A stretch of 64,000 bases of DNA from Allodiplogaster sudhausi. Taxonomy: Eukaryota; Nematoda; Chromadorea; Rhabditida; Diplogasteridae. The DNA is taken from contig CALZFC010000101.1 in assembly GCA_945643635.1 (NCBI GenBank), forward strand, positions 95,001 to 159,000, in the 5' to 3' direction. The notes beneath the pieces were generated by a model. It did not search any database, had not been told where the DNA came from, and worked only from the letters and a program-made list of their open reading frames with translations. Shown here one piece after another: positions 31,148 through 59,629 of this stretch (position 1 is the first letter of the stretch; each line of letters starts with the position of its first letter). A program made the translations under genes and the position numbers.

Positions 31148-31759
31148 ATGAAATCCATCACTTCCACTGTTCTTCTCGTGACCTTCCTGGCTGGACTTTC
31201 CTTGGCAGCTACGCAAGTCCCCCAGAAGTCTCTTCAATCTTCAACACCCTCTCCCCAGACTCCGGCAGTTCCTTCCGCTGCTGTTGCTCGCTTCAACTCC
31301 TTCACCACAAAGCCGTCTTCGTTGGCCGGGAGAGACAAGCGATGCTGTGGTTGCTGTGGCGGTTGCTGCAATAACTGCTGCAACAATTGCTGCAATAACG
31401 TGAGAGTCCTTTGAATATCTTTGAATGAGTCCTAAAAAAGGGAATTCAGTGCTGCAACCACTGTTGCTGCTGCAAGAAGTGCTGTTGTTGTTGCTGCAAA
31501 AAGTGTTGCTGCTGCCACAACTGCTGCTGTGGCAACCGCAACTGCTGCTGCAATAACTGCTGCAACAACTGCTGCTGCTGTCCCTGCTGCGGATGTGGAT
31601 GTGGATGCTGCGGATGCGGGTAAGGTTTAGTCTGACTCTTGGCATCTTCAAGGACTTACACTGAAATGCTGCAGTTGCTGCCCTTGCTGCTGCAAGCGCC
31701 GCAAGCGACGAGATTGCACGGCAGCCAAGCTATCGGGACTTCCTCAGGAGTCCGCTTGA
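31148..31759 (+). CDS. Secreted ultra-cysteine-rich protein, copy 1
   Basis: Exons 31148-31399, 31450-31619, 31675-31759 (TGA); 168 residues, phases close. Residues 1-20 are a signal peptide ('MKSITSTVLLVTFLAGLSLA'), 21-61 a Ser/Thr/Pro-rich pro-region, and 62-65 RDKR, a furin-type site. The predicted mature part (66-168) has 51 cysteines in 103 residues: CC pairs and runs of 2-6 Cys separated by NN, KK, HN or G ('CCGCCGGCCNNCCNNCC', 'KKCCCCCCKKCCCCHNCCC'), then 'CCPCCCKRRKRRDC' and a Cys-free tail. Cys codons are mostly TGC, so exon 2 is close to a TGC triplet repeat. TATAAAA is 58 bp before ATG; AATAAA at 31825-31830. No family recognised; a disulfide-crosslinked matrix or metal-binding role is only inference. 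Confidence 0.85.
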
Positions 31760-32551
31760 AATGCTAAAATTCTCTTCTCAGCAAGTTTAACAATATTGAC
31801 AGTAATTTATTTACCCTTCTCTTGAATAAAGTTTTTCAACAAGGAAGTTTTAATGTTGTTTTAAAGATAGCAATTATTGTTTTAAGAAGACAACTGTGAG
31901 TTTCTGAACTACCGAATATTAACACAACGTTTTCTATTCAGAGCCATTGAAATGACTATCTTGATAGATTTCATAGTCACATTTCGACATCATTTCATTT
32001 TCCTGCAAAGCGAGATCTCAGTAAGCGGAATCCTCCATTTCATTGTGCACGACCATATGAGCACAGAATCTGACGTTTCAATCTTCAGTCTCAGGACTCA
32101 ATTCCTGAGAATTATTTGAGGAACCACTAGAAGACTCAGCGATGGCAGCTTTTTATTTTATTTTTATTCATCTGACCATAAGGCGACATCTTTGAACCAG
32201 TATACATATATGACATGTACATAAATATATTTACATATGTAGTAAGTGGATAGGTCAATGACAACAGTTGTTTATGAGACACGCTCTATCCACATACATA
32301 AATGTTTGGATCATTGCGGATATGTCGATTCGGATTAGAAATGGCACGGCGTTCGACTACAAAGAAAGAGCAAAAGTCGCTTTCGGCTTGCGCCAACGAG
32401 CGAAGTCTGCCGATGATATGATATGAATAATTGGCATTCGTGGGCACTCTGAGGAATCGAGAGAGGAGGGGATAGGGAATGGGTAGAAAGGATGGTCTTG
32501 AGATGATTGGGAAAATGGGGTCGGCGAAAGAGGTGGGGAAGAAGAGACAAT

Positions 32552-32873
32552 TCAGAGATTGCAGCGCGTCCCGTTCACCTCGCGCCCCTTGAAGCGCCAG
32601 ACGTCATCGAAGTCGATGTCGATCGCGTTCGCGTCGTTGCCATACCTCAGAGAGATCGATCAGTCGAGAGAGAGAAAGAGTGAGAGAGAGAAAGAGAGAG
32701 AAAGAAAGAGAAAGAGAGAGAGAGAAAGAGAGAAAGAGAAAGAGAATGTACTTCTTGAATCTCTGTCGTGCCATGTCGATGATCTCCTTGGATATCTCGT
32801 TCTGCGACGTGCCACTCAACGTATCGGCAGAGGTCGTCGTTCGCGTAATGGCACGAGATCGCCTTGCGGAAAC
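32552..32873 (-). pseudogene. Phytanoyl-CoA dioxygenase, last two exons, frameshifted (unit I)
   Basis: Exons 32752-32873 and 32552-32645 (TGA 32552-32554) encode the C-terminus ('KAISCHYANDD' and 'DDVWRFKGREVNGTRCNL'). Compared with units III and IV, 5 bp are missing at about 32817-32820 ('cactcaacgtatc' here, 'cactcacgtccacgtatc' there), which shifts frame. The preceding exon present in unit III is absent because the block beyond 33286 is different. Not functional. Confidence 0.85.
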
Positions 32874-33065
32874 CTTCAATTATCAGCTCTCGATTGATAT
32901 TTTGAGCGCGTGAAAGAAATGCATTTAGATTATTTTCATGCTGGCTTACAGAACGAATGTGTTCTTTTTCTGATCACTGACTAATAGTTGATTCTTTCAC
33001 TCTCTCTCTCTCTCTCTCCTTCTCTTTCTCTCTTTTCACTATCTCTCCTTCTTTCTCTTCACTCT

Positions 33066-33102
<37 letters not shown>

Positions 33103-33410
33103 TCTCTCTCTCTTTTCACTATCTCTCCTTCTTTCTCTTCACTCTCCTTCTCTCTCTCTCTCTCCCTGTTCTAGTTGTTCCCCACGCTGGCATCATTTAC
33201 TCGCTTCACAGCGACAGCAGCTTGCCTGTTCTTACAGAGAAGGCTTACTACTTCGCCGTTCCGCTTCATTCCTTATCAAAAGAACGATAAACCAAACTTT
33301 TATTTTTTTTCTAGTGCTATCAAGGATTATCAAGAAAACATTAAAGGAAGTATCGTTTTGCATTAAAATATAGGATAAATGAACATATTTAAAGGAACAA
33401 AAATACTCAC

Positions 33411-33985
33411 AAAATCGGAGAGCTCCACCACGTCCGCCACTGCCAGGAATCCGCCGCCAAGAAGCCACGGCGAGGTCCGAACACCAGCAGGACCTCCACC
33501 AACTCCTGAATGCGCTTATCTTTCATTTATCTATAAATTTCTTTTAAATTATAGAAACAACGAAAACCGTTGGCGTGATTTTCAACGCGGTTCTGAAAAG
33601 GCCGAGGCGGGGTATAACTATGAATGATTTTAAAAACTGTCATTTCCCAAGGATTCGATAATAGCCTAAGACTAAGAAAACAAATGAACAGGCTTTTCAA
33701 TGTGTGAGGAAATGATTTTGGAAAAAAATACTGAAAATATAAAATTGCTGAAGTAAGTATACGAATTTCAACGTGAAATATTAACGATAGTTAATGCACC
33801 AATCAAGAGAAAACATATTAAATATTTAAATCGCTGGGAATACTGGCAGCATCAACTAACAGATGGATCCACTTATGAAGAAAAGAATTAAAAGCAAACC
33901 AGGCTCGGATGTCAAAAGAAGTTGATCTTGCTGTGCGCGCCGCTGCGCTATCTCGCTCCAGCAATCGCCGAGACGAACAGCGAGC
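33411..33985 (-). pseudogene. Unidentified two-exon gene fragment (unit I)
   Basis: Exons 33900-33985 and 33411-33505 join in phase, with acceptor AG and donor GT at each edge: 'LAVRLGDCWSEIAQRR' then 'SPWLLGGGFLAVADVVELSDF'. The last stretch loosely recalls the C-terminal helix of glutathione S-transferases (pattern xxxADxxxxxxF), but this is a guess. The gene would continue below 33411 but sequence there switches to the dioxygenase intron at the 33286 breakpoint, so the fragment is truncated. No start exon found. Confidence 0.4.
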
Positions 33986-34269
33986 CTGATAATAAAAGAA
34001 CAACGTTGCATATTCAGCATATTTAATAATGTTAATCTTATTACTCATTCGTGAAAAAGGAATGACAAACGTACTAAGGCATAAAAATTGCAACAGAAAC
34101 TTGCATGAATCAGCATTAACAAATCAGCTTTTTACTCCCAGAAGCGGGATGAATAAGTTGAACGTTTCAATTACTTACTATTAGAAGAAGAGTCTCCAGT
34201 CATCCCTCGCGAGCGCAAAGAGCAGCTTCGGCTGCCTACGCGGCCCGGGACGACTCCCGCTTTCTAACT

Positions 34270-36635
34270 GAAACAAAAGAGCATAATAGCAACGCTTACA
34301 CGTCATAAATATCATATCACAAAGCAATTCAATATTACAAACATGAAACAAACAAAAGGATAAGTTTTAAGTGTTTGTTAACCCGAGATTTTCTTTTGCA
34401 AATTAAACGTTCCGTTCAAATGATGATTCCGAATATTTTTCTAAACATGATCGAAAGTGGTACAATGTCACATTTTCTGTTCTCGCACCGCCTCGTCCCC
34501 CCTTGCCACCAAAATGTGACATCCGTTGTCACAATTCTCTTCGGCGGCCGCTTGCGTGTCACATTTTTGGTCACAATTTTGGATGGAACATTAATTGTGC
34601 GTCACATTTTTTTCTGTGTGTGCTTGCTCGTGTGGAGACGACAAAGCGAGATCGGCGACTTCCGGCTGAGGAATGATAGAAATTCTTATACTGACTATTG
34701 CATTTAGTTCTTAGTCTCTTGAGAGCGGCTGCTTGAATCACTTTCCCTAATTGTGCTTGAGTTCCTTTCGAGATGCTGTGCATAGGTCCGCGAGAATTGA
34801 GACAAAAACATAGAATGAAGGTCCACGATAATGATTGTGAGCAGAACCACGGAGGAACAAGGCTCTTCCTCCGTTATCATCATAACCGCAGGAGCAGTCG
34901 AAGTCATGAGAATCGAATATGTACATACACATGTATGTATATAACATTGATGAATCGCGCCGAGAACTGACCTAGGAGGGGCGCGATATGGCGCTTCCTG
35001 AAGTCCGGTTGCCTTCGCATTTCTAGCTTGTGCTTTGACAGCGAGTTTGAACTTGAACTTTGTTAACGCCCACCTTCGTGAAACATGCGAGAGTGAAACA
35101 AGCGATATAAATTTAGCAAAAAAATAAGATTATTGTTCAGATGATGTAAGGAGGTTATGCCAAAAAAGATGTACATATCTACTTTGAATGAAACTTCATC
35201 ATTTAGCTTTGCTGATTGTATGATTAAATCTTTTAACTGTTCTTACCTTCGAGAAGCACATGAAAATTATGGACCAAAAACGCTTTTTCTTCACATATGC
35301 AATACTGTTTTTATTTCATTTTCTACTATTTCAAGGTTGTTTGCAGAGGGGGACCAAAGATGGAAAGGAGCATAGAATTAGTGGAGGGATGCAGACTGTA
35401 ATAGAATGAGAAAGTGAATGGTGAGATGCATGGGAATGGGAGAGAGCAGAAGAGAAAGAGAGATGAGACATTGATTGAGCGAGTCGGAGAGGCTCATGCT
35501 CAGTTCTATTCGACTCTTCCTCTGCTTCGCCTGCTCGCCCATTCATGGCAGCATACAACTGCCACTGGCAACTCCTCTAAGCCATCAATCATCATCCTCC
35601 TTGTACCTGTCACATTTGGTCAGTTTTCATCTAGATATTTATATATTTCGCTTTGATTAGGTCGTATTTGATTTTTTTAAAATCTGTTTGTGAGTGTCTA
35701 TAAGATCTTTTTTTCTTATTTCAGAATACGTCGATTGGCTTCCTGAGCGTTCGAATAAATATGTTACAAAAATATTTGATGAAGGATGACGAACCAAAGT
35801 GAAAGTGGACCCAAGAACAGCAGAAACGAGGATGAAGAACTCTGTCGATGAATCGAGGAATTTGATGTTCACACCCGCTACCACATGCAGAAGGAGGTAG
35901 CTGACGTTGAGAAATACAAGATCCAATAAAAGACAACATTCTTTAGCATCCACCTGTGCAGTCGGACTCAGCCACTGCATCTTCCGTTATCTCCGAACTA
36001 TTTGAACAGGAAGGCGACTAAGAAAACGAATTTGTCACGGATCCCATGTATGAATCCACTTGTGATATTGCTAGGGGAGGAAACACAAGCTCTATCAGAT
36101 GATCATTAATTTCCTACTTCAATGTTCATAGGAAGACTGTAAAAGAAACGAAGGATATTTTCCAGTTTTCATATACTATGTCCATGGTTTTGTTGCATAA
36201 AAGCCAAACCGAATTCTCATTTATTGTTTTACAAAATTTTTATGTCAATTCACTGCCCGACAGTAAATAAACATCTTATCTTACTCGTTTTAAACACCCT
36301 TTAATGTGATATTGTGGTGCAAAAATGCGCCCTTGAGTTTCCGACTTCACGAGTCGTTGGTATCCGTTGGTAGAAAAAGAAAACGTTATCAGTCAAATTT
36401 CATGAAACGTGGTATTTATGTTATATGGAATTCTTCTCTCTAACTTATGTATATTGAAAACGATTTATTGCATAGTCAACAGTAATATTTCCTAGAGGAT
36501 CATTTTGCACTCACTGATGATCAAATGGAAAAATATGCCTAACAGTATAGCGTACATAGTATTCATTGCATAACGAGACGTTAATTCTGATGTCTCGCTG
36601 TGATTGACTAAATTCTCGTCCTTCTTCCACCGCGA
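34270..36635. other. No gene recognised; TGTCACATTTT cluster inside
   Basis: 2.4 kb between the unidentified fragment and the TSP1-like gene. At 34466-34610 'tgtcacattt' or its reverse complement recurs about five times with variants. A short plus-strand frame after an acceptor-like site at about 35725 ('EYVDWLPERSNK') soon hits a stop. Repeated in unit II at about 46115-48487. Confidence 0.5.
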
Positions 36636-37839
36636 CTAACACCCCTTGACTTCCTCATTGGCGCCACTGCAGATAATAGTTGCTATCGTGCTTATTTATC
36701 GATTAGTAGAATAATTGGATCGACGAGGTGTCTTGCTCATTTGGATCGTTTTCATGGCAAATTGAGCTAAGCGAGTTAAAAATATCGTTAACAAAATTTA
36801 TAAATAAAAAAAGGAAAAACCTGCATGGGCACTTGAATCCTTCGCCGGCGCAGGTTCGGAAGCGGCTCTGCTTCTTCGCGGCACACGGCATCCACACGCC
36901 CCATTCGTTCCAGTAGGTCGAGCTGTCTGCAAGGAGAGGCAAATGACTGTACGAACGTGGTGGTGTTGCTAGGTTCGGACTATTCTTCTAATTAGAATAC
37001 TAGCCCAAGCGAGTCTCGCGCACTCCTTCATTTGAACTCGCGAGATCACTTCACTTCGTTCCCGGTTCTCACCTAGAAGCCGCTCGGCTTGTTCTCTTCT
37101 ATGTATCTCTCGTATTCACCTCTCTCTCGCCTCGAATTTGGCTACCCACATACAAACTTTTCTCTCCGCTTCTGGTAAAACTCAACAGGTGCGAATCACG
37201 CTTTACATGTATGCGTTGTGCTGTTTCGCCTTTTAAAATGGAAATTTTTTGTTTAAATGGTTATGAAAAGCTAAAATCGCACTTGGCAGACAACATCCGT
37301 CAGCAGACTTCTTCAGGATGTTTTCTGTGTCACATGTGAATCGGTTGATGTTGTAGTTGATGTGTTTCTTGCCGACGCAGCAAGTGGGTTTCGGGTACTT
37401 GCACAGTGTTCGCTCGCACGGAACGTTCTTCGTCGTTTGGCCACTTTAAGAAATTTTTTAATTAAATTATTTGGCGGGAAAATTAAAAGTTCAAAATTGC
37501 CAACGTGCACGGGCAGCCATCGACTTCGGAGAGGCACTTGCGGGCCGCGGGCAGCGTCGTGCATCCGCCGCAGCTGGTCGGGCAGGCGACGCCAGGAAGG
37601 GTCATCCACTCGGACCAGACACCTCCCGCTGGGCAGCAGGCCTGAGAATGGCAGGCTCTTACTCTAGGTCCATCCTGGTGTTTCAGTCCATAAAACTAGT
37701 ATACGTAACGATTTGGGGCAGTCTTCCCTTTGTATCCTTTGAGATTCTTATAAAATCAGCCATAAGTAGAAACCTGCGCGTTCGTAGATGTCCACGAGGA
37801 GACGACGAAAAGTGAAAGGAGCAGAACGCGAACAGCCAT
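36636..37839 (-). CDS. Secreted TSP1-like cysteine-rich protein (unit I)
   Basis: Exons 37774-37839 (ATG), 37505-37641, 37283-37443, 36821-36926, 36636-36666 (TAG); 166 residues, all phases close. Residues 1-22 are a signal peptide ('MAVRVLLLSLFVVSSWTSTNA'-like, cleavage near Ala21). Then a thrombospondin type 1 repeat ('VWSEWMTLPGVACPTSCGGC', 'CLSEVDGCPC'), a Cys-rich segment ('CKYPKPTCCVGKKHINY', 'DGCCLP'), and a second short TSP1-like half ('YWNEWGVWMPC', 'FRTCAGEGFKCPC'), ending 'VKGC'. The 'CPTSCGGC...CPC...PTCC' spacing is that of small secreted nematode TSP1 proteins. TSP1 repeats bind glycans and matrix partners; no enzyme domain. Near-identical copy in unit II. Only the first repeat is close to canonical. 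Confidence 0.82.
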
Positions 37840-39108
37840 GTCTTCCAAGGTTTTCTCTCAAGCATCCAGTGTTTCTTTTAAGATAATGTAGACAAAAATA
37901 AAATATAGAAATATTATAATTATAGTTGATGACAACAAAATAGCCAAAGAATCTATAGAACGGGACATGGGGTTTAAAAAGAGAAAATATTCTACATCCT
38001 GAGAGTACGAGAACAGTTTGGTGGTTCGGCTTGTATCGCACTGTGCAATGCTGCATATTTATGTGTAGTTGTTGGACTCATAAACGCGTAAATCCCCCCT
38101 TCCACCCCCAACAACTGTTCAATCAAAATGCTGTCTGATGTTACTGGTGCATACAGAACATTTGACGGAGTCTTTGTTCCAGGTTGAGCTTATGGTTTCG
38201 TGGATCAAGACAATGTGGTTGATCTGCTGAATTCCAAATTTTACTACGATTGACGAAGGGTATGTTAAATAAAGACAGAATGCTAGTCAGAAGACCAAAA
38301 GAATCCTCTTTTGACAAGTCCTCCCACAGCTAAAATATTTGTGGACAAGTTTGCCATCTTTCGGTGACGCGCTCTCCCATTATTTCCTTTCTGCCTCTTT
38401 GGTGAAAAGATCATTTCTTAACTTTCGTTCGGCAGTTTCTCTAGCCTCTTTGTTTGCAACGTCTTTGTCATGTACATAGAGGTTTGCCCAAAGTAAGAAT
38501 TAGCACAGTGTATATTAATGTTCTATTTAGATAAAGTGAATCTTTTCTACAGTCAAACATTTCTCCGAGCGTTCTCGCCTGTTGACGGCGATTTCTAAGC
38601 GGTCTAGCAGCATTAATCTGACACTCGATTCCTGCAAACGGAATGAGAGAGACTCAAGGGAAGTGTTTAAAAAAACTTTCTCAATTTGTTTTTGCTTTTC
38701 CTTCAAGCATTTTTTTTTTACTTTCATCAGAAAATACAGCGGCTCTTTCCGTCACTTCATTCCTACATCAATTTAATTTCCATACTAGCTCCAAAGTCCG
38801 AGAGTGGTATATAGTTAGTACATAGGAGATGTGTACGTGACAATGAGCCAGTTGCACCTATCCAGATGGAGATGGTGACCATCACAACATTGATTCTCTC
38901 TCTATCTCTGTTTCTCCCTCTCTATCTTTCTCTCTCTCTCTCTCTTTCTCTCTCTTCTATTTCTTTCTTTTTCGATGCATCCCTTTTGTTCACGCTCATT
39001 TTCTAAATCTTAGTGAAAAGAAATCTTTATTCGCAAGATGAGACAATAAATATTAATACATATTTAAAACGCTAAATTAGCCATGTAAGATAAGAACAGT
39101 TTAGCATT
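37840..39108. other. Spacer between TSP1-like gene and cysteine-rich copy 2
   Basis: AT-rich, with a CT tract at about 38895-38965 shared by all minus copies. The breakpoint at about 38541 ('tcttttctacagtcaaac') marks where units I/II and III become homologous again. No gene called. Confidence 0.6.
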
Positions 39109-39721
39109 TCACGCCGACTTCTGAGGAAGTCCCGATCGCTTGGCTGCAGTGCAATCTCGTCGCTTGCGGCGCTTGCAGCAGCAAGGGCAGCAACTGCAGC
39201 ATTTCAGTGTAAGTCCCTTGAAGATGCCAAGAGACAGACTGAATCTTACCCGCATCCGCAGCATCCACATCCGCAGCAGGGACAGCAGCAGCAGTTGTTG
39301 CAGCAGTTATTGCAGCAGCAGTTGCGATTGCCACAGCAACAGTTGTGGCAGCAGCAACACTTTTTGCAGCAACAACAACAGCACTTCTTGCAGCAGCAAC
39401 AGTGGTTGCAGCACTGAATTCCCATTCTTAGGACTCATTCAGAGAAATTCAAAGGATTCTCACGTTATTGCAGCAATTGTTGCAGCAGTTATTGCAGCAA
39501 CCGCCACAGCAACCACAGCATCGCTTGTCTCTCCCGGCCACCGAAGAAGGCTTTGTGGTGAAGGAGTTGAAGCGAGCAACAGCAGCGGAAGGAACTGACG
39601 GAGTCGGTGGAGGGGATGTTTGGGTTGAAGATTGAAGAGACTTCTGAGGGACTTGCGTAGCTGCCAAGGAAAGTCCAGCCAGGAAGGTCACGAGAAGAAC
39701 AGTGGAAGTGATGAATTTCAT
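39109..39721 (-). CDS. Secreted ultra-cysteine-rich protein, copy 2
   Basis: Exons 39464-39721, 39250-39413, 39109-39193 (TGA 39109-39111); 168 residues. Minus-type member: starts MKFITSTV, pro-region has 'QTSPPPTPSV' (two residues longer), RDKR at 64-67. Exon 2 is two codons shorter in the Gly-Cys stretch, giving about 50 Cys in 101 mature residues. The tail reads 'AAKRSGLPQKSA' rather than 'AAKLSGLPQESA'. TATA box at 39773-39779, 58 bp from ATG. Its divergent partner (copy 3) is separated from it by the TTAA element at 39799-42586. Confidence 0.85.
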
Positions 39722-39798
39722 TTCTGTGGAGTGAAGCTGAGCCGGGTGGTTGACTGTCCCGGTCAATGGCACTTTTATATTACCGACTGTGACATTAA

Positions 39799-42586
39799 GA
39801 GAGCCTCTCTGTTAGGATCAAGCAGTCCTCAGTGGGAGCCTGCCCCGGGGCAAAAATTTCTGATTTGGTTATCCAAAATTTAATTTGTAGTACCCATGCG
39901 CACTATGAAGAAAATTAGAAGGTCAATTTTGTTATAAAATTTTTTTCCTTGTCTGGGCATGCAAATGTATGGAAAAAGTTGAAGTCCCCATAACTTTCTT
40001 TAATATCAATATTTTTCAATTTTCTTTTTTTTAACGGAATCAACGTTGGATTCTGAACAAAATCAGCCCAGATGTCTTTCAGTCAACTATTTTTTTCACA
40101 TCGAAAAATTACTTTTAATATTTGAATTTGACGGTTAAGTATCTTATACTCATTTGTGTGTGGGTGTTATATCTCAAAATGTAGAGCATTAAAAACTGTA
40201 TAACATATATTCTTTTCGCTTCGTGTGCACTACCCCTAAGGGGTGGAAAATAGGCTCAAATATGGGTACCTCGGATATGTAGGATTCAAGGAATGCGTGA
40301 AAAGAAGTTAAATTCTTGTTGTAACATAAAATGAACCATTTCATTCGATTCAGCACGTGCTTCTTTTCCAAAAAGCTCCATATAAAAATTTCATAAAATT
40401 ATCATCTTCCATGAAAAAAACGCATTTTTCGATTTTTCAGCCATTGTCAGAAAATGACCTAAAACTATTCGAATCGCTCTATTTTCAATGTTTTCAGTGA
40501 GAACAGAATGCGGATAGTACTATTCAGTACGCGACAAAATTCTCTACAACATACATCCATGACATCTGGATAGGGCGTCCCTACCAATGACACTATCGAT
40601 TTTCCTAAGGCGGTCGCGTCAAAACTAACAGATCCGCATTTTCCAACTTTTCGTGCAATCTTAATGTTTCTTACTCATCCAATGCATCATTCTGCTCCAC
40701 GAAGCACACAAAGGTCAGAACCGATGCTTGTTTTACAGCTCTCCCGTGGTAAAAGCCCGCAAAAGGGTTTGCACGCGCGCGGCTTCGAACCTGGGACCCA
40801 TGACTTTCGACGTGCACAACCAATTGGCTAAAATGACGTTATAAAATTCATTTCTGGAAAATGACAAAACCAATCTTAAAGGTTGACCTATCAGCCGATA
40901 GCTATTTTTGCGCTCTATCGAAATAAATATATCCGCCAAACAGTGTAAATTGATGGTAAGGTCAAATAAGTGGCCAAAATATTCGAACCCAAAAAAGTAG
41001 ATCAAAAAAGCTATTCATCATAACGTGATGTATGGGAAAGTTGTTCGTCTGAGCGAAAGCTATAGAATGGCATATAACATATGGGGACAAGTTCAATCCG
41101 CGAGCAATAAAGGCCGCGGTAATGTATCACCAACAAATTTACTTTTCAAAGGACTTCAGGGCACTTTTTCAGTACTCCAGCCGAATAGATAATAGTGACT
41201 GATAAAGAATGTCCTCTCTATTAGTAAGAGCACCGAAAAAGTGCCCTGGAGTCCGTTGAAAAGTCAATATTTTGGCGGGACATTTTCGCGGCTGTTATTG
41301 CTCGCGGATTGAACTTGTCCAAATATGTTATATGCCATTCTATAGCTTTCGCTCAGACGAACAACTTTCCCATACATCACGTTATGATGAATAGCTTTTT
41401 TGATCTACTTTTTTGGGTTCGAATATTTTGGCCACTTATTTGACCTTACCATCAATTTACACTGTTTGGCGGATATATTTATTTCGATAGAGCGCAAAAA
41501 TTGCTATCGGCTGATAGGTCAACCTTTAAGATTGGTTTTGTCATTTTCCAGAAATGAATTTTATAACGTCATTTTAGCCAATTGGTTGTGCACGTCGAAA
41601 GTCATGGGTCCCAGGTTCGAAGCCGTGCGCGTGCAAACCCTTTTGCGGGCTTTTACCTCTGTAAAACAAACATCGGTTCTGACCTTTGTGTGCTTCGTGG
41701 AGCAGAATGATGCATTGGATGAGTAAGAAACATTAAGATTGCACGAAAAGTTGGAAAATGCGGATCTGTTAGTCTTGACGCGACCGCCTTAGGAAAATCG
41801 ATACTGTCATTGGTAGGGACGCCCTATCCAGATCTAATGGATGTATGTTGTAGAGAATTTTGTCGCGTACTGAATAGTACTATCCGCATTCTGTTCTCAC
41901 TGAAAACATTGAAAATACAGCGATTCGAATAGTTTTAGGTCATTTTCTGACAATGGCTGAAAAATCGAAAAATGCATTTTTTTCATGGAAGATGATAATT
42001 TTATGAAATTTTGATATGGAGCTTTTTTGAAAAGAAGCACGTGCTGAATCGAATGAAATGGTTCATTTTATGTTACAACAAGAATTTAACTTCTTTTTAC
42101 GCATTCCTTGAATCCTACATATCCGAGGTACCCATATTTGAGCCTATTTTGCTCCCCTTAGGGGTAGTGCACACGAAGCGAAAAGAATATATGTTATACA
42201 GTTTTTAATGATCTACATTTTGAGATATAACACCCACACACAAATGAGTATAAGGTACTTACCCGTCAAATTCAAATATTAAAAGTAATTTTTCGATGTG
42301 AAAAAAATAGTTGACTGAAAGACATCTGGGCTGATTTTGTTCAGAATCCAACGTTGATTCCGTTAAAAAAAAGAAAATTGAAAAATATTGAGTTTGAAGC
42401 GAGATACATCAATTCAGATATTATCCATACTTTTACCTGTTCACGGAAAAATATTTTTTGAAAAAAAAATTTTGCCATTTAATATTGTTACTGGGGCCCA
42501 GTGCCATGCCCGACTATGTTTTCACATTCGAAATCCAACGTCTGGATCTGGGGCACGCCCTTCTGGAGGCATACGGAGAGGCTCTC
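39799..42586. mobile_element. 2.79-kb nearly palindromic DNA transposon with TTAA target duplication
   Basis: TTAA at 39795-39798 and 42587-42590 flank the insert. The ends are inverted: 'gagagcctctc' at 39799 and 'gagaggctctc' ending at 42586. The interior is a giant inverted repeat, arms about 40005-41175 and 41230-42390, axis near 41203, with scattered mismatches. Sister spacers at 51644 and 58588 read 'gacattaaaccctcgcg' without the insert, so the empty site is known. No transposase is visible; a 90-residue frame occurs in each arm ('MIYFFGFEYFGHLFDL') but has no recognised domain. TTAA specificity suggests a non-autonomous piggyBac- or Sola3-type element. Confidence 0.88.
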
Positions 42587-42590
42587 TTAA

Positions 42591-43015
42591 ACCCTCGCGA
42601 TGTCTCCAGGGGAACTTCTTGAAGGTGAGAGTGAAGAGAACGAGCAAACAATATATCAAGCGTACATCACACGGATATAATCGTGCCTTGACCTCAGAGT
42701 GAGCTCGCAATTTCATACTTACGTTCATCTCTAAAGATCGTGAGTGAAAATAGGCAGTTCTCTCTATTTTTAGATACATATATATATTTCGAGCTCGTTG
42801 GTAATAAATTTTAGTATTTTAGTTAGGAGATAAATTTGCGTCTCAACAAAATTTGTTCATAAGTCAACAGGCCCGTCGGAGACATTCGATCTGTTTGTTC
42901 TTCCGCTTGACACTTAATGTTCTCACTTGTGCTCTTGTCCGAGGGATCTTAGGATAATATAAAAGTGCCATTGACCGGAACAGTCCACCACCCGGCTCAG
43001 CTTCACTCCACAGCA
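42591..43015. promoter_or_regulatory. Divergent promoter spacer of copies 2 and 3 (right part)
   Basis: Corresponds to the spacer at 51572-52073, split from the copy 2 promoter by the TTAA element. TATAAAA at 42958-42964 is 58 bp from the copy 3 ATG. The rest ('ccctcgcgatgtctcc' to 'gagggatcttaggata') matches the sister spacers closely. Confidence 0.7.
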
Positions 43016-43606
43016 ATGAAATCCATCACTTCCACTGTTCTTCTCGTGACCTTCCTGGCTGGACTTTCCTTGGCAGCTACGCAAGTCCCCCAGAAGTCTC
43101 TTCAATCTTCAACACCCTCTCCCCAGACTCCGGCAGTTCCTTCCGCTGCTGTTGCTCGCTTCAACTCCTTCACCACAAAGCCTTCTTCGGTGGCCGGGAG
43201 AGACAAGCGATGCTGTGGTTGCTGTGGCGGTTGCTGCAATAACTGCTGCAACAATTGCTGCAATAACGTGAGAGTCCTTTGAATATCTTTGAATGAGTCC
43301 TAAGAATGGGAATTCAGTGCAAGAAGTGCTGTTGTTGTTGCTGCAAAAAGTGTTGCTGCTGCCACAACTGCTGCTGTGGCAACCGCAACTGCTGCTGCAA
43401 TAACTGCTGCAACAACTGCTGCTGCTGTCCCTGCTGCGGATGTGGATGTGGATGCTGCGGATGCGGGTAAGGTTTAGTCTGACTCTTGGCATCTTCAAGG
43501 ACTTACACTGAAATGCTGCAGTTGCTGCCCTTGCTGCTGCAAGCGCCGCAAGCGACGAGATTGCACGGCAGCCAAGCTATCGGGACTTCCTCAGGAGTCC
43601 GCTTGA
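43016..43606 (+). CDS. Secreted ultra-cysteine-rich protein, copy 3
   Basis: Exons 43016-43267, 43318-43466, 43522-43606 (TGA); 161 residues. As copy 1, but seven codons are missing at the start of exon 2, so the mature part has about 46 Cys in 96 residues; the frame is kept. The pro-region reads 'KPSSVAGRDKR'. TATAAAA at 42958-42964. Confidence 0.85.
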
Positions 43607-44912: not shown

Positions 44913-44949
<37 letters not shown>

Positions 44950-50958: not shown

Positions 50959-51571
50959 TCACGCCGACTTCTGAGGAAGTCCCGATCGCTTGGCTGCAGT
51001 GCAATCTCGTCGCTTGCGGCGCTTGCAGCAGCAAGGGCAGCAACTGCAGCATTTCAGTGTAAGTCCCTTGAAGATGCCAAGAGACAGACTGAATCTTACC
51101 CGCATCCGCAGCATCCACATCCGCAGCAGGGACAGCAGCAGCAGTTGTTGCAGCAGTTATTGCAGCAGCAGTTGCGATTGCCACAGCAACAGTTGTGGCA
51201 GCAGCAACACTTTTTGCAGCAACAACAACAGCACTTCTTGCAGCAGCAACAGTGGTTGCAGCACTGAATTCCCATTCTTAGGACTCATTCAGAGAAATTC
51301 AAAGGATTCTCACGTTATTGCAGCAATTGTTGCAGCAGTTATTGCAGCAACCGACACAGCAACCACAGCATCGCTTGTCTCTCCCGGCCACCGAAGAAGG
51401 CTTTGTGGTGAAGGAGTTGAAGCGAGCAACAGCAGCGGAAGGAACTGACGGAGTCGGTGGAGGGGATGTTTGGGTTGAAGATTGAAGAGACTTCTGAGGG
51501 ACTTGCGTAGCTGCCAAGGAAAGTCCAGCCAGGAAGGTCACGAGAAGAACAGTGGAAGTGATGAATTTCAT
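50959..51571 (-). CDS. Secreted ultra-cysteine-rich protein, copy 4
   Basis: Exons 51314-51571, 51100-51263, 50959-51043 (TGA); 168 residues, minus-type (MKFITSTV). One change within the Cys block of exon 1: Gly to Val ('CCGCCVGCC'). TATA box at 51623-51629. Divergent partner of copy 5, about 500 bp between start codons. Confidence 0.85.
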
Positions 51572-52073
51572 TGCTGTGGAGTGAAGCTGAGCCGGGTGGT
51601 TGACTGTCCCGGTCAATGGCACTTTTATATTACCGACTGTGACATTAAACCCTCGCGATGTCTCCAGGGGAACTTCTTGAAGGTGAGAGTGAAGAGAACG
51701 AGCAAACAATATATCAAGCGTACATCACACGGATATAATCGTGCCTTGACCACAGAGTGAGCTCGCAATTTCATACTTACGTTCATCTCTAAAGATCGTG
51801 AGTGAAAATAGGCAGTTCTCTCTAATTTGAGATACATATATATATTTCGAGCTCGTTGGTAATAAATTTTAGTATTTTAGTTAGGAGATAAATTTGCGTC
51901 TCAACAAAATTTGTTCATAAGTCAACAGGCCCGGCGGAGACATTCGATCTGTTTGTTCTTCCGCTTGACACTTAATGTTCTCACTTGTGCTCTTGTCCGA
52001 GGGATCTTAGGATAATATAAAAGTGCCATTGACCGGGACAGTCCACCACCCGGCTCAGCTTCACTCCACAGCA
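51572..52073. promoter_or_regulatory. Bidirectional promoter of copies 4 and 5
   Basis: 502 bp between two divergent ATGs. TTTTATA at 51623-51629 and TATAAAA at 52016-52022 sit 58 bp from their start codons. Both flanks share 'gtgccattgaccgg'-type sequence next to the TATA boxes and 'ccgggtgg' in the leaders. Contains an uninterrupted 'acattaaaccctcgcg' (51642-51657), the empty site of the TTAA element. Confidence 0.7.
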
Positions 52074-52685
52074 ATGAAATCCATCACTTCCACTGTTCTT
52101 CTCGTGACCTTCCTGGCTGGACTTTCCTTGGCAGCTACGCAAGTCCCCCAGAAGTCTCTTCAATCTTCAACACCCTCTCCCCAGACTCCGGCAGTTCCTT
52201 CCGCTGCTGCTGCTCGCTTCAACTCCTTCACCACAAAGCCTTCTTCGGTGGCCGGGAGAGACAAGCGATGCTGTGGTTGCTGTGGCGGTTGCTGCAATAA
52301 CTGCTGCAATAATTGCTGCAATAACGTGAGAGTCCTTTGAATATCTTTGAATGAGTCCTAAGAATGGGAATTCAGTGCTGCAACCACTGTTGCTGCTGCA
52401 AGAAGTGCTGTTGTTGTTGCTGCAAAAAGTGTTGCTGCTGCCACAACTGCTGCTGTGGCAATCGCAACAGCTGCTGCAATAACTGCTGCAACAACTGCTG
52501 CTGCTGTCCCTGCTGCGGATGTGGATGTGGATGCTGCGGATGCGGGTAAGGTTTAGTCTGACTCTTGGCATCTTCAAGGACTTACACTGAAATGCTGCAG
52601 TTGCTGCCCTTGCTGCTGCAAGCGCCGCAAGCGACGAGATTGTACGGCAGCCAAGCTATCGGGACTTCCTCAGGAGTCCGCTTGA
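52074..52685 (+). CDS. Secreted ultra-cysteine-rich protein, copy 5
   Basis: Exons 52074-52325, 52376-52545, 52601-52685 (TGA); 168 residues, plus-type (MKSITSTV). Differs from copy 1 by Val to Ala in the pro-region ('SAAAARF') and one Cys to Ser in exon 2 ('GNRNSCC'), leaving about 50 Cys. Confidence 0.85.
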
Positions 52686-53487
52686 AATGCTAAAATTCTC
52701 TTCTCAGCAAGTTTAACAATATTGACAGTAATTTATTTACCCTTCTCTTGAATAAAGTTTTTCAACAAGGAAGTTTTAATGTTGTTTTAAAGATAGCAAT
52801 TATTGTTTTAAGAAGACAACTGTGAGTTTCTGAACTACCGAATATTAACACAACGTTTTCTATTCAGAGCCATTGAAATGACTATCTTGATAGATTTCAT
52901 AGTCACATTTCGACATCATTTCATTTTCCTGCAAAGCGAGATCTCAGTAAGCGGAATCCTCCATTTCATTGTGCACGACCATATGAGCACAGAATCTGAC
53001 GTTTCAATCTTCAGTCTCAGGACTCAATTCCTGAGAATTATTTGAGGAACCACTAGAAGACTCAGCGATGGCATCTTTTTATTTTATTTTTATTCATCTG
53101 ACCATAAGGCGACATCTTTGAACCAGTATACATATATGACATGTACATAAATATATTTACATATGTAGTAAGTGGATAGGTCAATGACAACAGTTGTTTA
53201 TGAGACACGCTCTATCCACATACATAAATGTTTGGATCATTGCGGATATGTCAATTCGGATTAGAAATGGCACGGCGTTCGACTACAAAGAAAGAGCAAA
53301 AGTCGCTTTCGGCTTGCGCCAACGAGCGAAGTCTGCCGATGATATGATATGAATAATTGGCATTCGTGGGCACTCTGAGGAATCGAGAGAGGAGGGGATA
53401 GGGAATGGGTAGAAAGGATGGTCTTGAGATGATTGGGAAAAGGGTCTCTCATGGGGTCGGCGAAAGAGGTGGGGAAGAAGAGACAAT

Positions 53488-54162
53488 TCAGAGATTGCAG
53501 CGCGTCCCGTTCACCTCGCGCCCCTTGAAGCGCCAGACGTCATCGAAGTCGATGTCGATCGCGTTCGCGTCGTTGCCATACCTCAGAGAGATCGATCAGT
53601 CGAGAGAGAGAAAGAGTGAGAGAGAGAAAGAGAGAGAAAGAAAGAGAAAGAGAGAGAGAGAAAGAGAGAAAGAGAGAAAGAGAGAAAGAGAAAGAGAATG
53701 TACTTCTTGAATCTCTGTCGTGCCATGTCGATGATCTCTTTGGATATCTCGTTCTGCGACGTGCCACTCACGTCCACGTATCGGCAGAGGTCGTCGTTCG
53801 CGTAATGGCACGAGATCGCCTTGCGGAAACCTTCAATTATCAGCTCTCGATTGATATTTTGAGCGCGTGAAAGAAATGCATTTAGATTATTTTCATGCTG
53901 GCTTACAGAGCGAATGTGTTCTTTTTCTGATCACTGACTAATAGTTGATTCTTTCACTCTCTCTCTCTCTCCTTCTCTTTCTCTCTTTTCACTATCTCTC
54001 CTTCTTTCTCTTCACTCTCCTTCTCTCTCTCTCTCTCTCTCTCCTTCTCTCTCTCTTTTCACTATCTCTCCTTCTTTCTCTTCACTCTCCTTCTCTCTCT
54101 CTCTCTCTCTCTCTCTCCTTCTCTCTCTCTTTTCACTATCTCTCCTTCTTTCTCTTCACTCT

Positions 54163-54204
<42 letters not shown>

Positions 54205-54463
54205 GTTCTAGTTGTTCCCCACGCTGGCATCATTTACTCGCTTCACAGCGACAGCAGCTTGCCTGTTCTTACAGAGAAGGCTTATTACTTCGCCGTTCCG
54301 CTTCATTCCTTATCAAAAGAACGTGCAACTGTTTTAGTTCACGAGTTGAACTTTTGCTGGTAAGACTTGAGCGTGTGCAGAGAGAAAGACAGACAATGGG
54401 AACGAGGGATGGAGAGAGAGAGAGAAAAGAGAAAGAGGAAGGTGAGAGAGCCCACGAGGGAAA

Positions 54464-54498
<35 letters not shown>

Positions 54499-55078
54499 AG
54501 AGATGTGTTAAAACTGTAGTCGAGTCTAGTACTTTTCTGTCCTTATCTTCCACGCAGCTGATATCGTGGCTGTTCTCTTCAGTGTATCGGCCCTGTCACG
54601 TTAGACTCTCTTTCAATTGTCCCTATTTCTCTACTCCCTCAGTGTCTCTCTCCCCCCCCCCTCCCTTAGTCCCTCTCTCTCCCTCTCTCTCTCTCTGTCT
54701 CTCGCTTGCGCCACCCGTTCAACAACGAATTGTCGGATTGAATTTTCCGATTTTCCCTCTCTGATCATCGAGCACTAATTCGACTTTCCTAACGAAACAA
54801 CGAAACTAAACTCTTGTTGAAGGGACAAAGTATAGGGTGATTCTGATGTATGTAATTGCTATTTTATTTCATGAATACTACTAAAAATGTTAATGAATAA
54901 TTGTTATCAATGAATTAAATAACAAATTTAATTAGTAACCTTGCGTTCGATTGGCGCCCGAGCCGTGTATGATGAGAGGATGGAAGAAGAGCGTGTCGCC
55001 CACGTCCATCTCCACGTGAAGACGAGGCATCGACGGGTCGTAGTTCTGGATCCCATGGTACGCCTTGTTCACGCCACC
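53488..55078 (-). pseudogene. Phytanoyl-CoA dioxygenase, C-terminal three exons (unit III)
   Basis: Exons 54940-55078, 53704-53830, 53488-53581 (TGA 53488-53490) join in frame, 119 residues. '[15 protein letters not shown]' carries the distal iron-ligand His of the family; 'GFRKAISCHYAN', 'SGTSQNEISKEIIDMARQ' and 'DDVWRFKGREVNGTRCNL' follow human PHYH to its end. The family enzyme is a peroxisomal Fe(II)/2-oxoglutarate oxygenase that hydroxylates phytanoyl-CoA. The exon with the His-x-Asp iron ligands and all upstream exons are not present before the citrate synthase fragment, so this is a 3' fragment, though its frame is undamaged. Confidence 0.8.
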
Positions 55079-56206
55079 CTGCAGAGAGAGAGAGGGAGAG
55101 AAAGAGAGAGAGAGAGAGAAATACAGAAGGGAGAAGATAGTCGCCTTATAAGTTTTGGCATGAGTGACACCGTCAAAAAGATTTTTTTTAAGAAGAAATA
55201 AATTCGAAGCAAGAGAAGAGGGCGCAAAGATAAACGAAGAGTTTAAGGGGCTATTCGAGGTCTAATCCAAGGTGAGAACGCCAAGACTCGCTGTCGCTTT
55301 CGGCGGTGGAGCTGCAAGACATGGCGGGGCAGGGAAGGGAGAGCGCGAGAGAGGCTAGAAAACACCCAGGTGGATGGCAGAGGAAAGCAGCCGTGCTATT
55401 AATCTTGATCAAACTGACGCCAGTTTGATCAAAAGTTAATGAACATTTTATTTTGAGCTGAGTGAAATTTCAGTGAAATGTATTAAGCTGTTTCAAAAGG
55501 GGAACATTTTGTATTTCAGTTTTTGGGAATTTCTTATTTTGACTCAACATTTGGAAGTATTATAAAATTGTCACGGCTCATACTTTACTGTGCGAGAAGA
55601 AATGTTCCCAAATATGCGCCCCGGTCGACAATATGAAAAGGATGCTCAGCGTTTTGATTATCTCGTAAATCGCGACATTTATAAAACTTGGTATTGAGAG
55701 ATTGGTGTTGAGAGACATGGGCAACTTATTCACTTTTATTATCACCAAAAGCATATTAACTTTGAAAACAATAAAAGTGGACAAAGAGAGAAATGGAATG
55801 TGGGGAGGTAGACTTGTTTGTAAAAGAGAAGAAAAACAGAGTCGAAGAGAAACTCATGAATGACAGAGGCAGACAACCTCTACTCAAATGAAAGAAGGAG
55901 GCGGAAGGAGTAAGAAAGGAAAAATAGGCTAATAAGGCATTCAAAGGCTATAGGTGTACTAAATCACAGGTAAGCTAGAAAGAGAATGTGGGTTCAATTC
56001 TGCGAGTTCTTGCCCCGGTAAATAAAGCACCAGTGCTTACATCACAGAAAAATACTCGAACAAAGACAACGTAGCATTATTACTAGATAAAAGAAAAAAA
56101 CAAAGTAGGAAAATAACAAAGAATAATCCATTGGTAGTTCCCATTACTGTAACCTAATGGTGAATACCGTAATCCACCAACGGTCTCCTTGGTCTATCCC
56201 TCTGAT

Positions 56207-56481
56207 TTAATTCCTGGAGGAACTATTCGGCGGCAACAGCATCTTGCCCTGTTCGAGAAGGATGTTGGGAGTGATATAGAGGGTGGACACGAGACGGAAG
56301 AGGTCATCCTTAGGCAGATGCTTCAGAGCGAATTCACGCTGGCACTCATAGCGGGGGTCCGTCTTGATCTCGTTGTTGAGAACGGCTACGGCAGCAGTGA
56401 ACTGGGACATGGGATGGACATTCTCAGGAAGGGCATCCAGGAGACGAACGACGTGGGCAGGAAGGGCAGGAAGGGCATTCC
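56207..56481 (-). pseudogene. Citrate synthase exon with large internal deletion (unit III)
   Basis: Acceptor 'ctgtttaag' then a frame from 56481 to TAA at 56207-56209. It reads '[20 protein letters not shown]', '[13 protein letters not shown]', then directly '[20 protein letters not shown]' and '[10 protein letters not shown]', and leaves homology. In mitochondrial citrate synthase the HPMSQ and KTDPRY segments are some 150-200 residues apart, so the middle is missing, including both catalytic His residues; the C-terminal catalytic Asp segment is missing too. Not a working enzyme. Confidence 0.8.
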
Positions 56482-57022
56482 CTTAAACAGAATAATGGTA
56501 CTGTAGACAGAGTACCGTAATCAGTATATTTCTAGTTCCTCGCTTAGAAAAATTATTTTATAAAAGGCCACTATTTTTCATCCTTTTTTAAATACACCCC
56601 TGCACCTTTTAACGGTATACTAACGAAAGAAGTAGCCAAGCGGGTCCACGGTCACTTGCTTAAAAAGGATGAGTTTGGCAATAAGCATACTGTAAAAAGT
56701 CTACAGTAACATCTGTGATGCAAGCAAAGAGTCACTGAATAAAAAAAACCCGCCGACTCTGGAACTGCTGCTGGGACTATGGCGGCCCGAAGTGCGTGTT
56801 GCGGTCGCGTCGCGTGCGGAAGGTAGAGAGTATCTCGACCTCTTTCTAGCGCACTTCGCTCGCCTTGGAAACAAGTTTATTTACCATCGTTTAACTCCCA
56901 TACTTTGTTCCGAACAAATCCTTAAATAAAAACGAAAAACTTAGTAAACAAAACAACTTTTAAAAAAAAACTTGCCTGAGCCGGATATTCGGCAGAATGT
57001 TAAAAAAAATACGCCTTCAAAC

Positions 57023-57188
57023 CTGCATGGCACACACTCCACTTCCATCCACTTCCATCCTTTTTGAAGAAAAGGAAAGAAATCTCGCTGGCGCCGGCGC
57101 CGAAGCAGGTTTCCGCCAGATCGAAGAACATGACCGCCTTGGTGCCCTCGCCAATGCCCAGCTTCGAATAGAGCATCGCCATGACAAG
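57023..57188 (-). pseudogene. Unidentified exon (unit III)
   Basis: Between acceptor 'gctattcag' and donor 'gtttgaagg' an open 166-bp exon reads 'MLYSKLGIGEGTKAVMFFDL' and 'AETCFGAGASE', which looks coding (GC-rich third positions) but I cannot place it in a family. No neighbouring exon was found; it may belong with the citrate synthase fragment or another captured gene. Confidence 0.4.
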
Positions 57189-57902
57189 CTGAATAGCGAT
57201 ATCAATACAGCAGGAATAAATATTGTAAAAGCTTCTTATGAAAAGAATAAAAAGAACAAAACAACAGCAATTTTCATGGAGCGCAGAACTGTTCAAGGGT
57301 TTTCGCTAGTTCAAGCTTCTCAGCAAAGGCACGGTCTTTTCTACAGTCAAACATTTCTCCGAGCGTTCTCGCCTGTTGATGGCGATTTCTAAGCGGTCTA
57401 GCAGCATTAATCTGACACTCGATTCCTGCAAACGAAATGAGAGAGACTCAAGGGAAGTGTTTAAAAAAACTTTCTCAATTTGTTTTTGCTTTTCCTTCAA
57501 GCATTTTTTTTACTTTCATCAGAAAATACAGCGGCTCTTTCCGTCACTTCATTCCTACATCAATTTAATTTCCATACTAGCTCCAAAGTCCGAGAGTGGT
57601 ATATAGTTAGTACATAGGAGATGTGTACGTGACAATGAGCCAGTTGCACCTATCCAGATGGAGATGGTGACCATCACAACATTGATTCTCTCTCTATCTC
57701 TGTTTCTCCCTCTCTATCTTTCTCTCTCTCTCTCTCTCTTTCTCTCTCTTCTATTTCTTTCTTTTTCGATGCTTCCCTTTTTTTCACGCTCATTTTCTAA
57801 ATCTTAGTGAAAAGAAATCTTTATTCGCAAGATGAGACAATAAATATTAATACATATTTAAAACGCTAAATTAGCCATGTAAGATAAGAACAGTTTAGCA
57901 TT

Positions 57903-58515
57903 TCACGCCGACTTCTGAGGAAGTCCCGATCGCTTGGCTGCAGTGCAATCTCGTCGCTTGCGGCGCTTGCAGCAGCAAGGGCAGCAACTGCAGCATTTCA
58001 GTGTAAGTCCCTTGAAGATGCCAAGAGACAGACTGAATCTTACCCGCATCCGCAGCATCCACATCCGCAGCAGGGACAGCAGCAGCAGTTGTTGCAGCAG
58101 TTATTGCAGCAGCAGTTGCGATTGCCACAGCAACAGTTGTGGCAGCAGCAACACTTTTTGCAGCAACAACAACAGCACTTCTTGCAGCAGCAACAGTGGT
58201 TGCAGCACTGAATTCCCATTCTTAGGACTCATTCAGAGAAATTCAAAGGATTCTCACGTTATTGCAGCAATTGTTGCAGCAGTTATTGCAGCAACCGCCA
58301 CAGCAACCACAGCATCGCTTGTCTCTCCCGGCCACCGAAGAAGGCTTTGTGGTGAAGGAGTTGAAGCGAGCAACAGCAGCGGAAGGAACTGACGGAGTCG
58401 GTGGAGGGGATGTTTGGGTTGAAGATTGAAGAGACTTCTGAGGGACTTGCGTAGCTGCCAAGGAAAGTCCAGCCAGGAAGGTCACGAGAAGAACAGTGGA
58501 AATGATGAATTTCAT
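57903..58515 (-). CDS. Secreted ultra-cysteine-rich protein, copy 6
   Basis: Exons 58258-58515, 58044-58207, 57903-57987 (TGA); 168 residues, minus-type, with Thr to Ile at residue 5 of the signal peptide ('MKFIISTV'). Cys block as in copy 2. TATA box at 58567-58573. Confidence 0.85.
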
Positions 58516-59017
58516 TGCTGTGGAGTGAAGCTGAGCCGGGTGGTTGACTGTCCCGGTCAATGGCACTTTTATATTACCGACTGTGACATTAAACCCTCGC
58601 GATGTCTCCAGGGGAACTTCTTGAAGGTGAGAGTGAAGAGAACGAGCAAACAATATATCAAGCGTACATCACACGGATATAATCGTGCCTTGACCTCAGA
58701 GTGAGCTCGCAATTTCATACTTACGTTCATCTCTAAAGATCGTGAGTGAAAATAGGCAGTTCTCTCTAATTTGAGATACATATATATATTTCGAGCTCGT
58801 TGGTAATAAATTTTAGTATTTTAGTTAGGAGATAAATTTGCGTCTCAACAAAATTTGTTCATAAGTCAACAGGCCCGGCGGAGACATTCGATCTGTTTGT
58901 TCTTCCGCTTGACACTTAATGTTCTCACTTGTGCTCTTGTCCGAGGGATCTTAGGATAATATAAAAGTGCCATTGACCGGGACAGTCCACCACCCGGCTC
59001 AGCTTCACTCCACGGCA
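58516..59017. promoter_or_regulatory. Bidirectional promoter of copies 6 and 7
   Basis: 502 bp, nearly identical to 51572-52073. TATA boxes at 58567-58573 and 58960-58966, each 58 bp from its ATG. Empty TTAA site intact at about 58586-58601. Confidence 0.7.
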
Positions 59018-59629
59018 ATGAAATCCATCACTTCCACTGTTCTTCTCGTGACCTTCCTGGCTGGACTTTCCTTGGCAGCTACGCAAGTCCCCCAGAAGTC
59101 TCTTCAATCTTCAACACCCTCTCCCCAGACTCCGGCAGTTCCTTCCGCTGCTGCTGCTCGCTTCAACTCCTTCACCACAAAGCCTTCTTGGGTGGCCGGG
59201 AGAGACAAGCGATGCTGTGGTTGCTGTGGCGGTTGCTGCAATAACTGCTGCAATAATTGCTGCAATAACGTGAGAGTCCTTTGAATATCTTTGAATGAGT
59301 CCTAAGAATGGGAATTCAGTGCTGCAACCACTGTTGCTGCTGCAAGAAGTGCTGTTGTTGTTGCTGCAAAAAGTGTTGCTGCTGCCACAACTGCTGCTGT
59401 GGCAATCGCAACAGCTGCTGCAATAACTGCTGCAACAACTGCTGCTGCTGTCCCTGCTGCGGATGTGGATGTGGATGCTGCGGATGCGGGTAAGGTTTAG
59501 TCTGACTCTTGGCATCTTCAAGGACTTACACTGAAATGCTGCAGTTGCTGCCCTTGCTGCTGCAAGCGCCGCAAGCGACGAGATTGTACGGCAGCCAAGC
59601 TATCGGGACTTCCTCAGGAGTCCGCTTGA
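59018..59629 (+). CDS. Secreted ultra-cysteine-rich protein, copy 7
   Basis: Exons 59018-59269, 59320-59489, 59545-59629 (TGA); 168 residues, plus-type. Carries Ser to Trp just before the processing site ('KPSWVAGRDKR') and the same Cys to Ser as copy 5. All splice sites intact. Confidence 0.85.

Follow-up and report, generated by a model that had tools for sequence, protein, structure and literature searches.

Among described systems, the late chorion of the silkmoth comes closest in working principle to the gene family reported here, by analogy only, with no homology found. Silkmoth late high-cysteine chorion genes form 21 HcA-HcB pairs, strictly head-to-head and 330 nt apart, with >90% identity between the two TATA boxes, and their products penetrate and cross-link the eggshell (PMC4639761). 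The cysteine content of these chorion proteins reaches about 30% (PMC3068167). In nematodes, the pharyngeal cuticle of Caenorhabditis elegans receives secreted low-complexity families highly enriched in cysteine (PMC9629831), and cuticle disulfides of this species are reduced to permit apolysis (work cited in PMC9629831). Here we analyse a 64,000-nt stretch of the nematode Allodiplogaster sudhausi (GenBank assembly GCA_945643635.1, contig CALZFC010000101.1, positions 95,001 to 159,000, forward strand; referred to throughout as the window), which carries part of a large family of genes for apparently secreted, extremely cysteine-rich proteins. A disulfide-built matrix protein is a known working principle; what is new is the cysteine density and the basic sites that flank a nearly pure Cys/Asn/Gly core.

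When the window was compared with itself and spliced, seven complete genes of three exons each emerged, with introns of 50 and 55-56 nt that have GT..AG ends:

Gene 1: 31148..31759, plus strand; exons 31148-31399, 31450-31619 and 31675-31759; 168 aa (amino acids), 51 Cys after KR.
Gene 2: 39109..39721, minus strand; exons 39721-39464, 39413-39250 and 39193-39109; 168 aa, 50 Cys after KR.
Gene 3: 43016..43606, plus strand; exons 43016-43267, 43318-43466 and 43522-43606; 161 aa, 46 Cys after KR.
Gene 4: 50959..51571, minus strand; exons 51571-51314, 51263-51100 and 51043-50959; 168 aa, 50 Cys after KR.
Gene 5: 52074..52685, plus strand; exons 52074-52325, 52376-52545 and 52601-52685; 168 aa, 50 Cys after KR.
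Gene 6: 57903..58515, minus strand; exons 58515-58258, 58207-58044 and 57987-57903; 168 aa, 50 Cys after KR.
Gene 7: 59018..59629, plus strand; exons 59018-59269, 59320-59489 and 59545-59629; 168 aa, 50 Cys after KR.

Position 31148 is the first base of the gene 1 ATG and 59629 the last base of the gene 7 stop. The proteins are 161-168 aa long, the product of gene 3 being 7 residues shorter than those of its sister genes. After KR, the chain has 96-103 residues with 46-51 cysteines; when counting stops at a conserved basic site, KRRKRR, this leaves a core of 75-82 aa that is 60-61% cysteine. The first-pass annotation, made from the letters of the window, had described seven apparently intact three-exon genes with a signal-type N-terminus, a pro-region and a cysteine-dense chain. 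Its coordinates and cysteine counts were reproduced, and the family it proposed is confirmed as real. It overlooked the C-terminal basic site, the head-to-head architecture of the genes and the genome-wide scale of the family.

The window is part of contig C101 in an assembly of 351.8 Mb and 382 contigs. Searching the genome with an exon-1 query typical of another subfamily gave 114 matches at E <=1e-3 (126 of 126 candidates scored), a number that includes fragments and, in a few cases, two pieces of one gene. A window protein as query gave at least 168 exon matches (best 150 of 248 candidates scored), and a distant family member at least 162 (best 150 of 196 candidates scored). Across 53 stretches, namely 52 fetched loci and the window, we located 108 exon-1 places (90 with a usable start, 18 without) by a pattern that includes R-X-[KM]-R-CCGC, that site being present in them by construction. 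Clustered at about 97% identity by a k-mer proxy, these places make 93 groups, and some contigs may represent second haplotypes.

At least three subfamilies can be distinguished. Subfamily A is the window type. Subfamily B has CCNNNCC near the core start and GGC expansions near the core end. Subfamily C, mainly on contigs C246, C6, C4 and C67, has one extra intron that interrupts the core; its sole member modelled in full (locus L048) has four exons. Two more divergent members lie on contig C6 near 11168000 and on contig C9. The array of the window continues past its end with another pair (locus L060). Within the window, 3.1 kb of downstream sequence was copied along with a gene pair (54021-57147 and 60883-64000, 98.8% identity), which gives a duplication unit of about 6.9 kb. 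Elsewhere, the subfamily C genes of loci L049 and L050 (contigs C246 and C6) form matching sets whose order is mirrored, possibly two haplotypes or a recent segmental duplication.

To describe the products we used 52 distinct complete models: 63 automatic models, less 15 dropped by hand as wrong, partial or broken, plus the seven window genes, with duplicates merged. The automatic score favours cysteine and good splice sites and makes a hydrophobic N-terminus obligatory, and paralogues are non-independent in every count given here. One consensus fits most splice sites of the models. The polyadenylation-type signal AATAAA lies within 200 nt past the stop in 45 of 51 models (one was dropped for its short flank), compared with 17% of random pieces.

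All 52 models carry R-X-K-R immediately ahead of CCGCC (RDKR in 38, REKR in 9, RAKR in 2, RGKR in 2 and RNKR in 1). This is the R-X-[KR]-R of convertase precursors at the junction with the conserved part, and cleavage there is predicted. A second basic site, [KR][KR]RKRR, follows the core, again in 52 of 52. Between the two sites the core has 75-108 residues and is 49-61% cysteine. Its pooled composition is Cys 56%, Asn 17%, Gly 14%, Lys 5%, His 2.6%, Pro 1.5%, Arg 1.2%, Ser 1.1% and Gln 0.6%, with traces of F, I, Y and V; Asp and Glu number zero in the pooled cores of the 52 models. The cysteines stand alone or in runs of at most six, and the usual spacers are G, NN, GG, KK, P, GNRN, NH, NNN and HN. 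Each core has 41-53 of them, an odd number in 34 of 52 cores. Odd and varying counts argue against one closed intramolecular fold, and a cross-linked polymer would tolerate them. The tail after the second basic site differs in length and sequence by subfamily, from about 9 residues to the 74-residue acidic tail of L048.

Selection on the three parts of the precursor is very uneven. We estimated the ratio of nonsynonymous to synonymous divergence (dN/dS) from Nei-Gojobori counts over 253 A-A, 378 B-B and 644 A-B pairs. In that order, dN/dS is 0.056, 0.041 and 0.037 in the core; 0.484, 0.440 and 0.274 in the pro-region; and 0.686, 0.295 and 0.242 in the signal region. Between A and B the core has a dN of 0.057 and a dS of 1.54. 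In comparisons with the one C model, synonymous sites are saturated or nearly so; the proportion of nonsynonymous differences (pN) in the core is 0.087 for A-C and 0.073 for B-C, and the B-C pro-region has a dN/dS of 0.737. Both TGC and TGT are used in 32 of the 36 near-invariant cysteine columns (those with cysteine in at least 50 of 52 rows). Core constraint together with mixed TGC and TGT indicates that the cysteine frame encodes a real protein whose cysteines are strongly maintained by selection, not a chance composition. Diverged pro-regions and tails are what would be expected if both were discarded pieces.

The first-pass annotation had called the family tandem. It is a multigene array, but plain tandem order did not hold, as the genes form head-to-head pairs. 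Among the 46 neighbouring exon-1 places whose starts are <2.5 kb apart, tallied in the fetched stretches (2.3-9.7 kb each) and the window, 40 are head-to-head, 5 same-strand and 1 tail-to-tail. The ATG-ATG gap of head-to-head pairs has a median of 502 bp and is 300-750 bp in 36 of 40; 29 of the 40 pairs have usable starts in both genes. A hydrophobic N-terminus was found at 88 of the 90 usable starts, and the two with a weak hydrophobic stretch were excluded from the TATA count. Of the remaining 88 genes, 87 have TATAAA no more than 110 nt from the ATG (31 of 31 A, 41 of 42 B, 15 of 15 C), at a median of 59 nt upstream, compared with 4.8% of random 110-nt window pieces. The corresponding features of the window are as follows:

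31090..31097, plus strand: TATA box TATAAAAG, 58 nt upstream of the gene 1 ATG; the same element stands ahead of all seven window genes.
About 30587..30646, minus strand: remnant of an eighth gene that is paired divergently with gene 1; only the start region survives, in an altered frame, and the remainder is missing.
39722..43015: gene 2/gene 3 intergenic region, head-to-head; 3294 bp, extended by an inserted element.
39799..42586: inserted element of about 2.8 kb; terminal inverted repeats GAGAGCCTCTC...; TTAA at 39795-39798 and 42587-42590.
51572..52073: gene 4/gene 5 intergenic region; 502 bp, TATA box toward each gene.
58516..59017: gene 6/gene 7 intergenic region; 502 bp, TATA box toward each gene.

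The gene 2/gene 3 pair lies outside the 40 counted pairs, whose starts are <2.5 kb apart. The inner part of the inserted element (40006-42391, 2.4 kb) is 95% identical to its own reverse complement, and the element is absent at the corresponding place of the sister pair, near 51648. Its TTAA flanks, a mark of piggyBac-like elements, suggest a piggyBac-like or related non-autonomous element.

Further upstream motifs were counted in 55 non-redundant upstream regions (17 A, 28 B, 10 C), with a mononucleotide shuffle as control. Forkhead-like TGTTTGT occurs in 7 of 17 A, 24 of 28 B and 1 of 10 C regions; common descent may account for its presence in both A and B. TCTCACCT occurs in 7 of 17 A, 18 of 28 B and 0 of 10 C, and CACCTG in 17 of 28 B and in none of the A or C regions. 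The nuclear hormone receptor (NHR)-type half-site AGGTCA is present in 5 of 17 A regions (1.2 expected), 0 of 28 B and 1 of 10 C.

As far as these searches reach, this is a real, large and strongly constrained family of apparently secreted proteins that has gone undescribed. The first-pass annotation knew of no named family with such a composition, and its view stood in each database tried. A Pfam scan of two of the seven window proteins, at E up to 10, matched 0 families, so that membership in the chorion, metallothionein and keratin-associated protein families was rejected for these proteins. A PDB search with the gene 1 protein gave no relative (a single chance match, E 1.3), for metallothioneins included. 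The literature search, which covered open-access papers, found no description of such a family among those listed. A viral or prokaryotic source was rejected as well: pattern searches gave 55 and 166 matches, and tblastn confirmed zero of them.

Like silkmoth HcA and HcB, the genes are multicopy and lie in head-to-head pairs with a short promoter region between two TATA boxes, and their cysteine-dense products appear to be secreted. HcA/HcB pairs join two gene types at a distance of 330 nt; here both partners belong to one family and the gaps are mostly 329-716 bp. Unlike HcA/HcB, the A. sudhausi core lies between two basic sites, is 49-61% cysteine and has no Pfam match in the two proteins scanned. 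The APPG and IDPB families of C. elegans are likewise nematode, secreted, low-complexity, multigene and cysteine-enriched, and are deposited in matrix (PMC9629831). APPGs differ in being characterised as low-complexity, prion-like and largely disordered; the available portion of the same paper describes the APPG and IDPB families without a half-cysteine core, flanking basic sites or gene pairing.

In the feather protein EDCRP, 140 of 385 residues are cysteine (36%; PMC6713690). EDCRP and the hair keratin-associated proteins resemble the present family, in the role proposed for it, as structural proteins of very high cysteine content with putative disulfide cross-links; they differ as components of vertebrate cornified cells and in their lower cysteine content. 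They also have no signal peptide. Metallothioneins, like the family here, are small and cysteine-rich with CC pairs. They are cytosolic, about a third cysteine and without a pro-region, whereas R-X-K-R stands ahead of the core in every model here and nearly every start has a hydrophobic N-terminus. Ts-PCHTP of Trichinella spiralis shares with the family a nematode origin, a signal peptide and poly-cysteine stretches. It is a protein of about 48 kDa with 8.8% cysteine, a widely spaced cysteine motif with CKCCC and a poly-His tail, localised to the cuticle and all larval tissues (PMC2954182). Compared by eye with that description, the A. sudhausi proteins were rejected as members of the Trichinelloidea PCHTP family, given their core of 49-61% cysteine and lack of a His tail.

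The genes probably encode precursors of a secreted, convertase-processed, disulfide-crosslinked matrix protein of cuticle or eggshell type. The product would be made as a pre-pro-protein and directed by its signal peptide to the endoplasmic reticulum. A furin/kex-type convertase would then cut after R-X-K-R on the N-terminal side and at [KR][KR]RKRR on the C-terminal side, which would free a basic core of 75-108 residues, 49-61% Cys and otherwise mostly Asn, Gly, Lys and His. In the extracellular space, cores could be joined by intermolecular disulfides into an insoluble layer that would belong to the cuticle, the eggshell or another apical matrix of this type. Many copies in head-to-head pairs, with a short common intergenic region and a TATA box facing each gene, would favour high, co-ordinated output through shared regulation. 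We prefer this reading because of the paired TATA genes, the signal-type N-terminus, the flanking convertase-type sites and a set of side chains that offers little beyond disulfides or metal.

Several points weigh against it. Our confidence is lowered by two of them in particular: the heat-shock-like GAANNTTC is in slight excess upstream (7 of 55 regions vs 3.0 expected), which would fit a stress role, and the signal peptides are partly pre-selected, having been assessed by hydrophobic windows that the gene finder already demands and not by a trained predictor. Convertase cleavage is likewise read from motifs, and in one of the 15 dropped models RNMR replaces R-X-K-R. In the 55 upstream regions, no tissue-assigning motif common to A, B and C was found, and the assignment to cuticle or eggshell is correspondingly conditional. 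Cysteine, histidine and lysine could also bind metal. Finally, the proportion of synonymous differences (pS) within A is lower in the core (0.091) than in the pro-region (0.304), which suggests gene conversion on top of selection, and conversion may thus add to core homogeneity within A.

The main rival is a secreted metal binder, in which the cores would bind Zn, Cu, Cd or Fe in metal-thiolate clusters, extracellularly or in vesicles, for storage or detoxification; we consider this unlikely. Lysine and histidine are present beside cysteine in the core, whose cysteine content is to our knowledge higher than that of any metallothionein, and the modest over-representation of the heat-shock-like site would be in keeping with such a role. 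The secretory nematode poly-cysteine protein Ts-PCHTP is reported to bind Fe, Ni and Zn (PMC2954182), but it is merely 8.8% cysteine and has a His tail. A signal-type N-terminus and convertase-type sites indicate an oxidising route, and the two window proteins scanned match no Pfam family. Nor do the promoters favour metal control: against the shuffled control, sites like the metal-responsive element (MRE) are near expectation (7 of 55 regions vs 5.4; 1 of 17 A, 4 of 28 B and 2 of 10 C vs 1.4, 2.9 and 1.1), and GATA sites are fewer than expected. The first-pass annotation had left the choice between disulfide-crosslinked material and metal binding; its structural option gained from the TATA pairs, the flanking basic sites, the odd and variable cysteine numbers and the lack of acidic residues, while its metal option found no support in the MRE-like and GATA counts.

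Less likely again is a secreted defence peptide or effector, a large family of processed cysteine-rich peptides acting on microbes or host. The pre-pro-peptide layout with basic processing sites, a cationic core free of acidic residues and the large multicopy family would all suit it. Defence and effector families usually diversify in their mature part. Here the core is strongly conserved over the 52 models (dN/dS about 0.04-0.06) and the variation sits in the pro-region and tail instead; since conservation falls on the core rather than on the pro-region, this explanation loses weight, and the variable, often odd cysteine number also speaks against it.

A redox-active or germline-specific secreted protein, such as a coat of sperm, spermatheca or gland whose thiols would buffer oxidation without building a matrix, appears improbable. 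Paired TATA promoters would be compatible with an expression burst in one cell type, but the cysteines stand in runs, so the sequence indicates no defined redox-active motif. A non-coding CTG/TGC-rich repeat that merely appears open and was spread by segmental duplication was rejected: simple repeats and recent duplications (97-99% identity) do abound in the region, but codon-level constraint across several subfamilies (dN/dS), conserved splice sites and the TATA and AATAAA signals contradict it.

Taking the disulfide-crosslinked matrix protein further, we regard it as an even call whether the family is a lineage-evolved biomaterial that arose independently as an analogue of insect chorion and vertebrate hair and feather proteins. 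Such a material would be made from a convertase-released peptide of up to 61% cysteine, free of acidic and nearly free of hydrophobic residues, held together essentially by disulfides alone and encoded at about 110 gene places, of which some are broken and most form bidirectional TATA pairs. We know of no protein family with a higher cysteine density. If true, this would be an extreme case of a disulfide-built extracellular material. A mostly cysteine peptide would be a test of how the secretory pathway copes with dozens of neighbouring thiols and keeps them from aggregating too early, and of whether the pro-regions at the two ends hold the core soluble until it is cut. The silkmoth chorion parallel (pairs, short intergenic region, similar copies, high cysteine) would then clearly exemplify convergence in the genome architecture of bulk matrix proteins, and the family would be a strong marker for the nematode layer that contains it.

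Other features of the window lie outside the array:

15633-15710, minus strand: SmY spliceosomal RNA (43.5 bits, gathering 39).
16169-16501, plus strand: BRCT domain exon (PF16770 E 1.2e-8, PF00533 E 1.2e-5).
27625-28008, plus strand: PP1-type phosphatase-like fragment (PF00149 E 4.8e-4; 21.0 bits, just below the curated cut-off of 21.5; PP1 assigned by eye).

SmY is a nematode-specific RNA family. A Pfam scan of 10 other open reading frames of the window gave nothing beyond the BRCT domain and the PP1-like phosphoesterase fragment. Arrays of a 73/87-bp unit with CGACATTTGAGCAA occupy 5232-6510 and 9824-10956, mutually inverted and about 3.3 kb apart. Elsewhere in the genome, a query that we take to be the canonical SL1 leader gave 2393 matches with at most one mismatch vs 0 for the reversed control; these matches and the SmY RNA both support the nematode origin of the DNA. 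Tandem SL1 copies at G000:C1:10148768-10204176 are often spaced at about 460 bp and others at about 2.7 kb, and this array changes orientation more than once.

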